Source of the DNA: a virus
Virus record (IMG/VR): IMGVR_UViG_3300030061_001164
Location: 1-27,640 of that record
Length of the DNA stretch: 27,640 nt
Direction: 5' to 3' (one strand)
The translations under genes and the position numbers were made by a program. The notes under the pieces are model-generated. The model did no database searches. It had not been told where the DNA came from and was given only the letters and a program-made list of their open reading frames with translations. Below are positions 12,376 through 21,138 of this stretch, in pieces (the stretch's first letter is position 1; the number at the start of each line of letters is the position of its first letter).

Positions 12376-12461
12376 AGTGCAATGATTAATAAAATTAGTA
12401 TAATAAATCCGACTATTGTCATGAATGTTTTTGCAATATATTCTTCTTCGTCACTTAACAT
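12369..12461 (-). CDS. 30-aa single-span membrane peptide
   Basis: Starts MLSDEEEYIAKTF, followed by a strongly hydrophobic helix (residues 14-29). The ATG overlaps the sigma-factor stop as ATGTTAA and the stop overlaps the next ATG as ATGGTAA. The reading frame fills the 80-base gap exactly. Acidic N-terminus plus one helix suggests insertion in the inner membrane. The family is not recognised. Confidence 0.6.
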   Translation of the reverse strand: MLSDEEEYIAKTFMTIVGFIILILLIIALW

Positions 12462-13021
12462 TTTAAAATCTTTTTAACTTTTTTAATTGATTTGTATAGT
12501 GTGCTTTTGCTAATTCCAGTTTCTTTTTCCATACTATTCAATGAAAATTGTTTTCCATTTACTTCACCCAAATAATAAATTCTAAAAACCTCGCTATCAA
12601 ACCAATGAATTTTTTTAAGTTTTTTGTCTATTTCTTCAAGCCCTTTTTCAATTTGTTTCTTTGCTTCTATTCCATCTTCTTGAATTATTCTGTGCAATCT
12701 TGAAGGCGTGTTGTTTATGTATTGGTCTTGCCAACAACCCAAAACAAATTTTTCATTTATTTTTTTATAATACTTTCTATATTTATACCAATAAGGACTT
12801 GTCTTTGAGTGATATTGATTGACCATTATTCTCGCAATCCAAAACAATAGCTTTCTATTTTCTATCAAATCGTCTATCTTTTTTTTATCACTACTATATA
12901 AAGAAACAATCGTTTCGTGCAACAAGTCGTCTTTATCTGGTGACTTTTCACTCGTTATTTTATACGCAATCTCTTTTAATCTTTCGTAATTTTCTTCCAG
13001 ATATTTGCTCAGTTTTGACAC
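12455..13021 (-). CDS. Sigma-70-like transcription factor (phage type)
   Basis: 188 aa. The N-terminus has a region-2-like segment (YLEENYERLKEIAYKI, then DKDDLLHETIVSLY and an IARIMVNQYHS helix). The C-terminus has a region-4-like helix-turn-helix (FRIYYLGEVNGKQFS, MEKETGISKSTLYKSIKKVKKIL). Small sigma-like proteins of this form are frequent in Bacteroidota phages. It is the best candidate in the window to read the repeated promoter motif at 759, 9378, 24787 and 27201, though that link is inference. The start overlaps the upstream gene by 62 bases, but the conserved region begins soon after it, so I kept it. Confidence 0.75.
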   Translation of the reverse strand: MSKLSKYLEENYERLKEIAYKITSEKSPDKDDLLHETIVSLYSSDKKKIDDLIENRKLLFWIARIMVNQYHSKTSPYWYKYRKYYKKINEKFVLGCWQDQYINNTPSRLHRIIQEDGIEAKKQIEKGLEEIDKKLKKIHWFDSEVFRIYYLGEVNGKQFSLNSMEKETGISKSTLYKSIKKVKKILKC

Positions 13022-17298: not shown

Positions 17299-17682
17299 TT
17301 ATATTTTTTTAATTTTTTCAAGCCCACGACTTCCGAAATAAGCCCCAATACAAGTAATGTTGCAAATTTCAATAAGACTAATCCACCGTTCTTCTACGTT
17401 AAAATTAATCGTTCCACTGTCAATGAAGACAAGCAAAACGGTTGCTATTATTAAAAAAGCAAGTGTCAATGGACGAATGTTTGCTGGAAGCCACCCAGCT
17501 TTTGCGTCAGCTTCCCACCTTCTTGTGACTTGCTCTTGTGCTTTGGCTTCTGCGTCCATTATTGCTTTCTTTAAAGATAAAGACAATTCAAGCTTTTCTT
17601 CCTTCGTGGTCGTTAAGTTATCAACCAAGTTGTCAACATTTTTAATCAAATCACCAGTTAAAATCTTTTTTATAAAGTTCAT
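17299..17682 (-). CDS. Holin, 3TM-holin-like family
   Basis: 127 aa. An N-terminal helix (LIKNVDNLVDNLTTTKEEK) with a basic, amphipathic middle precedes the segment WLPANIRPLTLAFLIIATVLLVF. A second membrane span (LIEICNITCIGAYFG) follows, ending in RGLEKIKKI. The 'WLPANIRPLTL' junction is typical of phage holins of the 3TM family (PF11351-like). It would permeabilise the inner membrane to release the endolysin, whose gene overlaps it by 4 bases (ATGA). Confidence 0.82.
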   Translation of the reverse strand: MNFIKKILTGDLIKNVDNLVDNLTTTKEEKLELSLSLKKAIMDAEAKAQEQVTRRWEADAKAGWLPANIRPLTLAFLIIATVLLVFIDSGTINFNVEERWISLIEICNITCIGAYFGSRGLEKIKKI

Positions 17683-18209
17683 GCGGAATAATAATTTGTT
17701 GGCGGTCTGTATTTTGTTTTATTGTTTTCGTCTTTATAAGCCACAAGAATTTGTCTTCTGTTTCCTTCTACTTTCCAACTTATATGAATCCACGCTGGAT
17801 TGTCACTGTCTTTTTCACGAGTTGCACCCTCTCCAAATTCAAGAATCATTTGGTCAAATTCCAAAGACCCTTCAATCACGGCTTTAAATATCTTGTAATT
17901 ATCCATTTTTCCACGCTTAACATATTGAAGGTCAACGGCTTCACATTTGCAATGTTGTGAAGTTGCTACATATTTACCATCTATAATTTTATATGCTCCC
18001 CCAATTGCTTTGTTTAGTTCTGGAGAACGATAACCACTCGTCACTCGTATAGAGCCAGAAAGTCGGTCACGAATTGGCTGGAGCAATTGAGTGGTCATCA
18101 ATCTATATTTTAAAATACCTTCTTTTGGAATCTTGTTTGAAATACCCAAACGCAAACTTGTGTTTGATTTTTCAAATTCATAAAGACTAAAGTTTTTTGA
18201 TAATTTCAT
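17679..18209 (-). CDS. Endolysin, M15 zinc peptidase
   Basis: 176 aa, Peptidase_M15_3-like D,D-carboxypeptidase / L-alanyl-D-glutamate peptidase type. It starts MKLSKNFSLYEFEKS and has VTSGYRSPELNKAIGG. The zinc site is His86 and Asp93 (SQHCKCEAVDL) with His142 (WIHIS). The usual glycine of the SxHxxGxAxD motif is Cys89 here. No signal peptide, so export depends on a holin. It overlaps the thioredoxin-like gene upstream and the holin gene downstream by 4 bases each. It cleaves peptidoglycan peptides at lysis. Confidence 0.88.
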   Translation of the reverse strand: MKLSKNFSLYEFEKSNTSLRLGISNKIPKEGILKYRLMTTQLLQPIRDRLSGSIRVTSGYRSPELNKAIGGAYKIIDGKYVATSQHCKCEAVDLQYVKRGKMDNYKIFKAVIEGSLEFDQMILEFGEGATREKDSDNPAWIHISWKVEGNRRQILVAYKDENNKTKYRPPTNYYSA

Positions 18210-18532
18210 TCAAATTTGGCTAAGTGAATTTTTTGGATTTCTTCTTGGATTTCTTTTTTAGTGGTTTCAAGTTTCATCATGATGTTAGCTTCAAACCTTT
18301 TGACTTCAACGTTGTTGTCAAAAATTATAATGGTTGGCACTGAAAGAATGTCGTGTTTTTCTTGCAAGTCTGGATTGTGACAAATAACAACATTGGAAGT
18401 TTCGCAGTCTTTTAAAGCTGAAATATCAAAATTATTTTTCTCATTCCATTCACTATTGAAATGGATTGTTGATACTTGCGAATAGCTTATAAAAAATAAA
18501 CTACTTATTATTAATGTTATATAACCTTTCAT
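18206..18532 (-). CDS. Exported thioredoxin-fold protein without active-site cysteines
   Basis: 108 aa with a signal peptide (MKGYITLIISSLFFISYSQ, cleavage likely before Gln19). The rest follows a thioredoxin fold: strand VSTIHFNSEW, a helix, strand SNVVICHNP, then ILSVPTIIIFDN with the cis-proline at 66 and VEVKRFEAN. The redox motif WCxxC is replaced by W29-N30-E31-K32-N33, so both cysteines are asparagine. I recall similar signal-peptide proteins in lysis regions of other Bacteroidota phages. It is probably a periplasmic binding or scaffold protein; its function is unknown. The start overlaps the spanin-like gene. Confidence 0.7.
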   Translation of the reverse strand: MKGYITLIISSLFFISYSQVSTIHFNSEWNEKNNFDISALKDCETSNVVICHNPDLQEKHDILSVPTIIIFDNNVEVKRFEANIMMKLETTKKEIQEEIQKIHLAKFE

Positions 18533-18800
18533 CTATTATGTCAATTTTAGATTCTATCTTGTCAAGTTGCTCTTTCTGAGTCTCTTGTTGTTTCTCTAAA
18601 TTCATTATAGTTTTTCTAATCAATTCGTCTTTTAGTGTTATTTCTTGCGGTGACATTGGCAAAGCTGGAAGCTCTTTGGCTTCTGAGATTGACGCTTGAA
18701 GCGAAAACCACATTCCAACAAACGCAAAGATCAACATTGCTATTCCGCCCAGTGTCTTAATACTGACTTGAAGTTTAGAGTCTTCTGAAAGTTCTTTCAT
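18501..18800 (-). CDS. Membrane-anchored coiled-coil protein (lysis accessory, spanin-like)
   Basis: 99 aa. A short N-terminal part, one transmembrane helix (LGGIAMLIFAFVGMWFSL, about 18-35), a Pro-containing linker (ELPALPMSPQ) and a long charged coiled coil (DELIRKTIMNLEKQQETQ onward). A single anchor plus periplasmic coiled coil is the form of an inner-membrane spanin or holin accessory. No lipoprotein partner is evident. It begins with a one-base overlap after the 77-aa membrane protein. Confidence 0.6.
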   Translation of the reverse strand: MKELSEDSKLQVSIKTLGGIAMLIFAFVGMWFSLQASISEAKELPALPMSPQEITLKDELIRKTIMNLEKQQETQKEQLDKIESKIDIIDERLYNINNK

Positions 18801-19033
18801 TATTTACAAGATTTGTCGCATTTTTTACCACTGAATTTTTCAACACCACTAATTCCAAAACAACCAAGCACCACCCAAACAAAAGAATCGTAAACAAATT
18901 CGTTTATTACTAAGTCTTGACCAAAGTAACCAGTGACCAAGTCTGCTGTCATTATAAAACACATTATTGTAAAAGCAACAAAACCAATGATTGCTTTTTC
19001 GTTCCAATTATTATTGTCTTTGAATATATCCAT
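18800..19033 (-). CDS. Small two-span membrane protein, holin-like
   Basis: 77 aa with two hydrophobic stretches (AIIGFVAFTIMCFIMTADLV at about 14-33, and FVWVVLGCFGISGV at about 51-64) and a Cys/Lys-rich tail (FSGKKCDKSCK). Size and layout fit a holin or antiholin. The classic holin lies three genes later, so this may be its regulator. It abuts the exported LDLa-like gene upstream. Confidence 0.55.
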   Translation of the reverse strand: MDIFKDNNNWNEKAIIGFVAFTIMCFIMTADLVTGYFGQDLVINEFVYDSFVWVVLGCFGISGVEKFSGKKCDKSCK

Positions 19034-19590
19034 TATAATTTAAATTTAATTAGTCCATTTTGTATGTAAACACCTTCGGGCTTGTTCACCACCTTGCCAC
19101 TTAAATTATACATTAAACCCGTGTTTTTTGATTCATTCACAAATTCTTGCAGTCGTATTCCACAAGGTAAACCAGTGTCACAGTCTATAAATTCGGGAAT
19201 GATAATGTCTTGAAACTCAATAATCGTGTCAAATATATATTCGGTTTCAATTATAGTTTGATATTCTATTTCAACAATTGTGTCGTAAATCCATTCTATA
19301 AATGGTATTTCAATGAATACAGTGTCGCACTGTTCACCATATTGACCGCAATCCGCTAATGTTGTTGGCTCTGCGTCTTGCTCGTCGCTTCCGTCTCCGC
19401 AATCGTCCCAACCGTCATTAAGATAATACAAGCCCCCAGCACCATTAGGAACGCAACCAAGAGGACTATACTGAGTCCAATTGCTTTCGTCGTCTCCACA
19501 ATAGAAACCATTTTGCTGAACACATAATTCACAATTTGTTTGACTAAAGCCATAACCGAAAATTAAAAATAAAAAGATTAGTTTTTTCAT
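19033..19590 (-). CDS. Exported LDL-receptor-A-like protein with T9SS-like C-terminus
   Basis: 185 aa. Residues 1-16 form a signal peptide (MKKLIFLFLIFGYGFS). Residues 20-81 hold six cysteines (20, 23, 31, 46, 64, 81) and the segment DGWDDCGDGSDE at 59-70, which matches the calcium-binding end of an LDL-receptor class A module; the cysteine that normally precedes DG is Asn58. Residues 88-135 are a repetitive Ile/Glu/Asp-Thr linker (IYDTIVEIEY, YIFDTIIEFQ). The last 28 residues (MYNLSGKVVNKPEGVY at 160-175, then IQNG and KFKL) resemble a flavobacterial type IX secretion C-terminal sorting signal. This would predict export to the outer face of the host. It is followed by membrane and lysis genes and preceded, two bases away, by a beta-barrel-like protein gene. 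Confidence 0.6.
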   Translation of the reverse strand: MKKLIFLFLIFGYGFSQTNCELCVQQNGFYCGDDESNWTQYSPLGCVPNGAGGLYYLNDGWDDCGDGSDEQDAEPTTLADCGQYGEQCDTVFIEIPFIEWIYDTIVEIEYQTIIETEYIFDTIIEFQDIIIPEFIDCDTGLPCGIRLQEFVNESKNTGLMYNLSGKVVNKPEGVYIQNGLIKFKL

Positions 19591-19591
19591 A

Positions 19592-20608
19592 TTAGTATAT
19601 TAAATAATTGAACCCAAATTTAATGTCAAAGACTTCTTTTCCCCAAACCTTTTGATGAACACCCTCAACGAACAAACCTAAATGCTTGTTGACCCTAAGC
19701 CCTAAAACACCACCAGCGTCCCATTCTAAGCGATTTAAGAGACTTTCTCCATACTCGTAAGAGTATTCGTCCAAACCATAGTGAAAAGGCATAAGACTTG
19801 CCCAAATGTGAACCCAGTATTTTGAAGTATATTTGTAGTATGTAGAGCCAAGAACAAAGCTCACTTCTTTTTGCATACCTAATTTGTCAAGTTCTTGTGT
19901 GTTAAAGTCTGCAATTGCTTGTCCGAAATAGTGTTTGTAGAACTCGTCATTTGATGTTGCAAGAAGCTCGTCACCTTTGAACCAGTGCCAAGAGCCATTG
20001 ACAAACTCGTTTGAATAGCCAAAGTCTTGTGCTAATTGTCTGAATGATTGTTCTCCTTGAATCCAGAAATCACGAATAGGAACGAAGCCATAAGGGTCGT
20101 GAATACGAAAGACACCGCCAAAAGTGAAGTCAAAGTTGCCTTTAGATATTCGGTATCTCGTATCAAAAGAAATGTATCTTAAATCAACTCTTTGGTTGTC
20201 TCTATACTCTAAACGTGTGACACAACTCTTTCCCAAGTATCGCAACCAGAAGTTTTGTTCTGTGTATTTGTCACCTCTATTTCTTATGAAAGAATAGTTT
20301 AAAAGATATTCCCAACCAATTGCGTTTCCGATTGTTGCTTGATCTGTGTAGTTTGATTCGTCTCCATAATACCAAGTCCGAATTTTTTGTTCGTGTTGGA
20401 ATCTTGCCTTTTTTCTCAATCCGATTGTGAGATTATAGTCAAACGGATTTACTTGTGTAACGTCTTCGTAACCTTTAGCAATAGAAATATAGTCTTCATT
20501 TTCGGTCATGCTTGTTCCGATATTCATTGAAGTATATATTGTAGAATACTTGAAGAAGTCTATTTGACTAAATGATAAAAAAGGAATTAATAAAAATAGA
20601 TATTTCAT
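19592..20608 (-). CDS. Exported outer-membrane beta-barrel-like protein
   Basis: 338 aa. Signal peptide MKYLFLLIPFLSFS, cleavage before Gln15. The rest is a series of alternating polar/aromatic strands (RFQHEQKIRTWYY, WEYLLNYSFIRN, QNFWLRYLG, TRLEYRDNQRVDLRYISF, VLGLRVNKHLGLFVEGVH) and ends with FDIKFGFNYLIY. The terminal aromatic residue and final strand fit a BAM beta-signal. It has few cysteines. This looks like a host-type outer membrane protein carried by a phage; it could change receptor exposure, block other phages or aid lysis, or it could be a virion protein. The start overlaps the fibre-like gene by one base. Confidence 0.55.
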   Translation of the reverse strand: MKYLFLLIPFLSFSQIDFFKYSTIYTSMNIGTSMTENEDYISIAKGYEDVTQVNPFDYNLTIGLRKKARFQHEQKIRTWYYGDESNYTDQATIGNAIGWEYLLNYSFIRNRGDKYTEQNFWLRYLGKSCVTRLEYRDNQRVDLRYISFDTRYRISKGNFDFTFGGVFRIHDPYGFVPIRDFWIQGEQSFRQLAQDFGYSNEFVNGSWHWFKGDELLATSNDEFYKHYFGQAIADFNTQELDKLGMQKEVSFVLGSTYYKYTSKYWVHIWASLMPFHYGLDEYSYEYGESLLNRLEWDAGGVLGLRVNKHLGLFVEGVHQKVWGKEVFDIKFGFNYLIY

Positions 20609-21138
20609 TATAAAACTTTTACGTAGTTATAAGTTACATAAACATCTGCCGTCCACCCACCATTAAAGGCACCACTTGCAGACATCATAAAAGGTTTGTT
20701 TAAAATACTGGTCGCACAAGCACCTGCGCTACTTCCAGATGAATTAGTTATAAAAGTAATGTCAGTAGTTTTACTATTCATGCAATCTCTTATAATAGTC
20801 CAATTTGTGGAAGAGTCTGAAGTGTCATAAGTTAAAAGTAAATCTTTACTTGATGATTCTGTAGACGAAGCGTATGTAACAAACATAGTGAAACTAAACA
20901 CATTAATATAATACCCACTTAAAGCACCGACTAATGTTTTTGGTGTTGAGTTCAAAGCTTTTATCTCCGCATTAGTAAGGGAGAACTTGTCCGTTTGCAT
21001 TAAAAATTTTGCGTCATATTTCTTGCTCGTCCCTTCTGCGCTTCCAGTTGTGTCGTTTACATCTACGACCATTAATAAATCGCCACTAGAAAATTGTTCC
21101 TCAAGTGCCGTTTTATCCGTTAACCTTTGTCCCGCCAT
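20608..21138 (-). CDS. Fibre-like virion protein
   Basis: 176 aa. The N-terminus (MAGQRLTDKTALEEQFSSGDLLMVVDVND, then KKYDAKFLMQ) is a pattern shared by head or tail fibre N-termini in Bacteroidota phages. The rest is Ser/Thr-rich beta sequence. No signal peptide. It follows the head-tail adaptor and a 37-aa basic ORF and precedes the exported cassette. A trimeric fibre or decoration role is inferred. Confidence 0.5.
   Translation of the reverse strand: MAGQRLTDKTALEEQFSSGDLLMVVDVNDTTGSAEGTSKKYDAKFLMQTDKFSLTNAEIKALNSTPKTLVGALSGYYINVFSFTMFVTYASSTESSSKDLLLTYDTSDSSTNWTIIRDCMNSKTTDITFITNSSGSSAGACATSILNKPFMMSASGAFNGGWTADVYVTYNYVKVL

Follow-up and report, generated by a model that had tools for sequence, protein, structure and literature searches.

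A conserved phage protein with an LDLa-like module and a short T9SS-type tail, encoded beside a predicted outer-membrane barrel

What would a phage do with a protein that begins with a signal peptide, continues in a segment resembling LDL-receptor class A (LDLa) domains and ends like a cargo of the type IX secretion system (T9SS)? The question is raised by an ORF of a virus contig from IMG/VR, 27,640 bases long and analysed here over its whole length (the window). The preliminary description of this ORF listed a signal peptide, DGWDDCGDGSDE, a D-T-I/V-E linker and a C-terminal tail, and the ORF and all of these parts are present as first described. Its "six-cysteine segment" needs amending: residues 17-90 hold seven cysteines (20, 23, 31, 46, 64, 81 and 88), and two further cysteines (137 and 143) stand directly before the tail. 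The protein and its parts lie in the window as follows.

19033..19590, minus strand: LDLa-like/short-CTD phage protein, 185 aa, ATG start
19543..19590, minus strand: signal peptide, residues 1-16, predicted cleavage before Q17
19321..19542, minus strand: LDLa-like cysteine-rich module, residues 17-90
19381..19425, minus strand: putative calcium box, residues 56-70, with aromatic Y56 and invariant D59, D63, C64, D69 and E70
19183..19326, minus strand: D-T-I/V-E linker, residues 89-136, of highly variable length in the family
19036..19161, minus strand: putative short T9SS-type C-terminal sorting signal, residues 144-185, 42 aa after P-C
19093..19110, minus strand: motif B, YNLSGK, residues 161-166
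19063..19074, minus strand: motif D, GVYI, residues 173-176 (GxYI)

The phage origin first assigned to the ORF is supported. Of viral relatives, 83 were found by single-sequence search, 126 with a tail profile and 211 with a profile of the N-terminal module, the family extending over more than 200 marine viral contigs and up to 211 confirmed viral stretches. Among the INPHARED phage records, no relative of this ORF, of the barrel gene beside it or of the coiled-coil gene downstream was found. Across 42 diverged family members, 35 alignment columns are invariant. Comparison of the window protein with that of L002 gave pS 0.157, pN 0.011 and dN/dS of about 0.06, and the median dN/dS over 199 pairs was 0.25; judged by these ratios, the family is under purifying selection. 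The window also encodes a homologue (33%) of the portal protein of Nonlabens phage P12024S, and its gene order matches that phage too, which points to phages whose presumed hosts are marine Flavobacteriaceae. A separate ORF at 12455-13021 is placed like the P12024S gene annotated as sigma-70 region 2 and possibly encodes a phage sigma factor.

Judged by sequence pattern, the signal peptide would be cleaved between MKKLIFLFLIFGYGFS and Q17, a residue invariant in the 42 members of the family alignment and in keeping with the Q-rule for signal peptide cleavage in Bacteroidetes (PMC5837995). The signal is one for signal peptidase I, followed by Q; the lipobox cysteine is absent, and the protein does not carry the outer-membrane lipoprotein signal that marks an o-spanin. 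The same combination of signal peptide and Q begins the barrel protein and a thioredoxin-like protein of the locus. Sec export, as proposed in the preliminary description, is upheld by the signal peptide pattern together with invariant Q17, and the exported state of the LDLa protein is strongly supported at this level of evidence.

Motifs and profile matches show the N-terminal module to be related, though divergently, to LDL-receptor class A domains. It shares with LDLa (PF00057) the calcium-box acids with exactly the LDLa spacing (D-x3-D-C-x4-D-E), the cysteines C1, C2, C3 and C5, an aromatic residue (W or Y) at the -3 position and profile similarity; D59, D63, C64, D69 and E70 are invariant in 42 viral and two cellular rows of the alignment. 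When the module profile was run against all PDB sequences, the 39 matches at E<5 (best 9e-5) were all LDLa carriers, the 39 matched names being ones that we take to denote LDLa-bearing proteins. PF00057 matched 29 of the 42 members at E<=1 (best 7e-4), with the window protein at 13.1 bits, below the gathering cut-off of 24.1 bits. In LDLa domains the fourth and sixth cysteines form one disulfide pair. The phage module is unlike them in that C4 is replaced by N or A (in the compact members shown), C6 is moved (the next cysteine lies 8-11 residues past the E, against 1-5), the loop is longer, and Cys20 and Cys81 are added and invariant, and we infer that C20-C81 may be a replacement disulfide. 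The calcium module of the preliminary description therefore keeps its acids, their spacing and its homology by profile, and loses the status of a canonical LDLa domain, with one disulfide pair replaced and the Pfam score below cut-off. The six-cysteine LDLa signature (1-3, 2-5, 4-6; PROSITE-type) is matched only by L085, a Neomarinimicrobiota protein whose matched stretch is 52% identical to the window protein, and in which the full signature is followed by tandem Pfam-recognised LDLa repeats (2.9e-14). Nothing in the scanned genomes scored above the Pfam cut-off for canonical LDLa. The altered design is common to the cellular Flavobacteriales proteins L083 and L228, which suggests that the phages probably took the module from hosts of this type. 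AF2 gave the module a pLDDT of about 40-50 within a poor whole-protein model, and the fold search was uninformative and returned no fold match.

At the other end of the protein, P-C stands 42-45 aa from the C-terminus in all 45 tails, which also all carry motif B (Y-x3-G), motif E and a relaxed motif D, the strict form GxYI being kept in 38 and its Gly missing in seven. A tail pattern matched 80 of 80 family C-termini and 1 of 4167 other ORF C-termini from the same loci, a contrast that measures specificity only, as the pattern had been designed on the family itself. AF2 modelled the tail as a helix and three strands (160-162, 173-177 and 180-184) at pLDDT 72-84, the remaining model being poor. 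These features resemble the short T9SS CTDs of Prevotella intermedia, which span 40-51 aa at the very C-terminus, carry motif B (Tyr and an invariant Gly), motif D (GxY-I) and a basic motif E, are predicted to form a three-stranded sheet and have had their cleavage shown by experiment at five (PMC11969387). The likeness extends to length, to motifs B, D and E and to the extreme C-terminal position, but the phage tails have P-C-(N/G)...I in place of PT/GI where cleavage is presumed and do not always keep the motif D Gly. The Pfam and NCBIfam T9SS models (PF18962/TIGR04183, built on long CTDs) matched none of the 42 members, a silence that the preliminary description had itself named as one half of what would speak against type IX export. 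In hhalign comparisons, the match of the tail to host long CTDs was weak (probability 21, with 0 of 400 shuffles as good) and that to the CTDs of larger phages was not above shuffles. Since the similarity to long CTDs is weak, the T9SS reading is based on the motifs and length of the tail, on the gene slot and on cellular carriers.

Such carriers exist among marine Flavobacteriales, where the same tail ends unrelated secreted proteins (L082, L084, L086 and L138), including an LRR protein encoded among housekeeping genes (L084) and two cysteine-repeat proteins (L082 and L086). Eight weaker matches were found in 296 genomes at E values of 2e-4 to 7e-4 per genome, with about 0.2 expected, and the seven that were checked are C-termini of exported-looking proteins. 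The tail also weakly matches the C-termini of two PDB proteins; HSH49, considered as a PDB match, was rejected as chance. Each of four genomes in which the tail or the module occurs has 25-40 Por_Secre_tail domains, and PorV was found in these and in related genomes, above cut-off in 13 of 15.

The gene slot was examined through the neighbours of the ORF, which are arranged in the window as follows.

19592..20608, minus strand: predicted outer-membrane beta-barrel partner, 338 aa, signal peptide + Q, aromatic C-terminus
18800..19033, minus strand: small membrane protein with two hydrophobic stretches, overlapping the stop of the LDLa ORF (TAATG)
18501..18800, minus strand: protein of 99 aa with an N-terminal TM segment and a coiled coil, in 75 of 80 loci
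18206..18532, minus strand: exported thioredoxin-like protein, signal peptide + Q, in 72 of 80 loci
17679..18209, minus strand: M15 peptidase endolysin of the same operon (PF08291 4.4e-12, PHROG endolysin 4.6e-28)
17299..17682, minus strand: holin of the same operon (PHROG holin 3.8e-20)

The barrel gene, a conserved partner that the preliminary description does not mention, adjoins the LDLa ORF upstream in 79 of 80 loci, even where the portal and connector genes differ; these locus counts refer to the best 80 loci per scan, picked by similarity and not at random. AF2 modelled the upstream gene product as a barrel (pLDDT 76), two scans placed relatives of it in 589 and 543 confirmed viral stretches (two sets that may overlap), and a search of 296 genomes of the order Flavobacteriales gave a single match, on a phage contig; the barrel is predicted to be a phage-specific outer-membrane protein. 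What stands next to it varies. Its neighbour is an LDLa/short-tail protein in 75 of 77 sampled loci; in larger phages, 71 of 80 loci have there instead a protein of roughly 800-1,400 aa with a T9SS CTD at its end, many of the loci outside these counts being cut by contig ends. All 51 full-length large cargo proteins begin with a signal peptide and Q, and the large cargo of L313 has a CTD above the Pfam cut-off (50 bits against 27, E 3e-13). A third type of cargo, found at six loci beside the large-phage barrel, consists of the linker and the same short tail without LDLa. The tail-profile scan revealed no viral protein with the tail on any other N-terminal domain.

L313 (G122:C32, identical to IMGVR_UViG_2778261060_000022), a phage contig of 43 kb, lies within the assembly of a Flavobacteriales genome; on it, a cysteine-repeat protein of 996 aa that has a canonical T9SS domain adjoins the same barrel family and other genes resemble those of queuosine biosynthesis and ribonucleotide reductase. 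A single 245 kb viral contig has two barrel copies (L468 and L469) separated by about 119 kb, and each of them adjoins a different large T9SS cargo gene. In one short-tail cargo without LDLa (L439:8817-9437) the signal is lipoprotein-type (LLLAGC) and not one for signal peptidase I. The large cargo has a cysteine repeat (CTDPxxFNYDPxANxDDGSC) that is also present in Synechococcus phage S-CAM3 (KU686198.1, 36830-36985), in a protein that the annotation of the RefSeq copy calls virion structural.

A barrel gene beside a T9SS cargo gene recalls the setting of PorV and PorP-SprF, but past the signal peptide the phage barrel has no profile similarity to these proteins. An SprF-type partner was rejected, the probability of 77 reflecting only a signal-peptide alignment of 27 columns; PorV and OMP_b-brl_2 were negative (PorV 6.9% over 20 columns); and the fold search for a specific relative returned only generic porin-like barrels (OmpG, CymA, TamA and FapF). 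The best evidence for type IX export is the gene pairing, in which one barrel family is accompanied by several unrelated cargo proteins that all appear to end in T9SS-type tails. Of the type IX export first suggested, the fit of the tail to the short class and the slot shared with canonical cargo hold, and recognition by the standard profiles does not. Taken on these grounds, T9SS delivery of the LDLa protein is well supported; its arrival at the cell surface is likewise well supported, though short of proof.

Homologies, motifs, gene pairing and operon layout can be read directly from the DNA, and from them we propose, as a reasonably probable account of the whole, that the LDLa protein is a host-derived chimera sent to the surface of the infected cell late in infection, where it would change adsorption. 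It would be exported by Sec and cleaved by signal peptidase I before Q17; the short T9SS signal (residues 144-185) would then pass it to the host PorV/SprA machinery, and, once cut near P142-C143, the protein would either stay on display or be released. What is displayed would be an LDLa-like binding module, loaded with calcium and carried by an extended D-T-I/V stalk. Its production would fall in one packed operon with the barrel, the inner-membrane coiled coil, the exported thioredoxin-like protein, endolysin and holin, and this shared operon suggests that the protein acts late, within a set of proteins that remodel the envelope. Its purpose would most likely be an altered surface that keeps other phages, or the phage's own progeny, off the dying cell and its debris, which fits with a surface module that is host-like, an operon that is late and a protein in which no enzymatic domain is recognised. 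The preliminary description had named receptor masking, a block to superinfection or altered aggregation as possible effects. The sequence itself does not favour a block to adsorption over other roles at the surface; like T9SS transport, calcium binding and partnership with the barrel, the purpose is our interpretation.

The main rival, which we regard as unlikely, is that the operon is an envelope-rupture module in which the coiled coil, the thioredoxin-like protein, the barrel and the surface protein replace spanins and break or fuse the outer membrane as the final lysis step. From barrel to endolysin and holin, the genes of the window overlap or almost touch, so that the LDLa and barrel genes share an overlapping operon with the lysis genes. 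The barrel, coiled-coil and thioredoxin-like genes also stay together across unrelated phages: the coiled-coil gene accompanies the barrel in 44 of 48 and 53 of 67 barrel loci (two sets) and the thioredoxin-like gene in 44 of 48 and 54 of 67, the L313 homologue of the latter matching PF00085 at 6e-6. The coiled-coil protein is laid out like an i-spanin, and for Croceibacter, a marine flavobacterium, two phages are listed as lacking spanins (PMC6139136). Like Rz/Rz1, the set combines an inner-membrane coiled coil with an outer-membrane component in a lysis operon, a likeness of layout, but the phage set has a barrel instead of a lipoprotein, plus an extra surface cargo. The LDLa protein is itself no lipoprotein and has no TM anchor. 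In large phages, moreover, its place is taken by a repeat protein of 800-1,400 aa, and we know of no lysis protein resembling such cargo. The syntenic Nonlabens phage P12024S has endolysin and holin without the barrel, the LDLa protein or the tail, and a recent survey gives Bacteroidetes phages unimolecular spanins (PMC12596118).

Display could also serve attachment, the LDLa protein being an adhesin for neighbouring cells, particles or the virion that aggregates infected cells or tethers progeny. LDLa modules use calcium and an aromatic pocket to bind their ligands, and W or Y at -3 is kept in the phage module; the cysteine repeats of the large partner recur in cyanophage S-CAM3 virion proteins. 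A single module would nevertheless give low avidity, the linker varies greatly in length and no ligand is known, and we consider this role rather improbable. Equally doubtful is the reading in which the tail is not a T9SS signal and forms a conserved structural hairpin, the protein staying periplasmic or bound inside the barrel. The failure of standard T9SS models to find the tail, the strict motif D Gly absent in 7 of 45 tails and the restriction of the tail, among viruses, to the barrel/LDLa operon agree with it; against it, unrelated cellular secreted proteins carry the same tail in the absence of the phage barrel, canonical T9SS cargo holds the same slot, and tail length and motifs match those of short CTDs. 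That the LDLa protein is a virion protein is very improbable: its gene lies downstream of the connector and a probable virion gene and occupies the place of the P12024S tail-fibre gene, but the signal peptide with Q17 is invariant, no member has been seen without a signal peptide, and the modules are those of host secreted proteins. The upstream gene in question (20608-21138, MAGQRLTDKTALEEQ...VVDVNDTTGSAEGTSKK) is virion- or neck-like and overlaps the start of the barrel gene (TAATG).

Returning to surface display, the receptor-like module, the type IX tail and the barrel neighbour together suggest that the infected cell very probably displays a phage protein shortly before bursting. More tentatively, the inner-membrane coiled coil, the periplasmic thioredoxin-like protein, the barrel and the interchangeable T9SS cargo may form a conserved trans-envelope module through which marine Flavobacteriales phages borrow the host T9SS for a dedicated infection step, candidates being outer-membrane rupture without classical spanins or a general block to adsorption.

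Phage-encoded T9SS cargo has one published precedent, Cryophage, a Bacteroidetes phage encoding proteins with T9SS sorting domains that are presumed to use the host system, and for which superinfection exclusion was already proposed (PMC7468147). The LDLa family is likewise T9SS-type cargo of Bacteroidetes phages. Whereas the Cryophage cargo, encoded in variable islands, consists of enzymes and PA14 proteins that carry standard type A domains, the LDLa protein is conserved, has no recognised enzyme domain, combines a short CTD with the LDLa-like module and is accompanied by a near-constant barrel neighbour over hundreds of contigs. Phage use of the type IX system would thus move from one reported case to a widespread feature of marine Bacteroidota phages, with a new pairing of one phage barrel family and interchangeable kinds of T9SS cargo. 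An LDLa-like calcium module appears to move between bacterial secreted proteins and phages, and there are now concrete genes through which to ask how flavobacterial phages treat the outer membrane and surface of their host before lysis.
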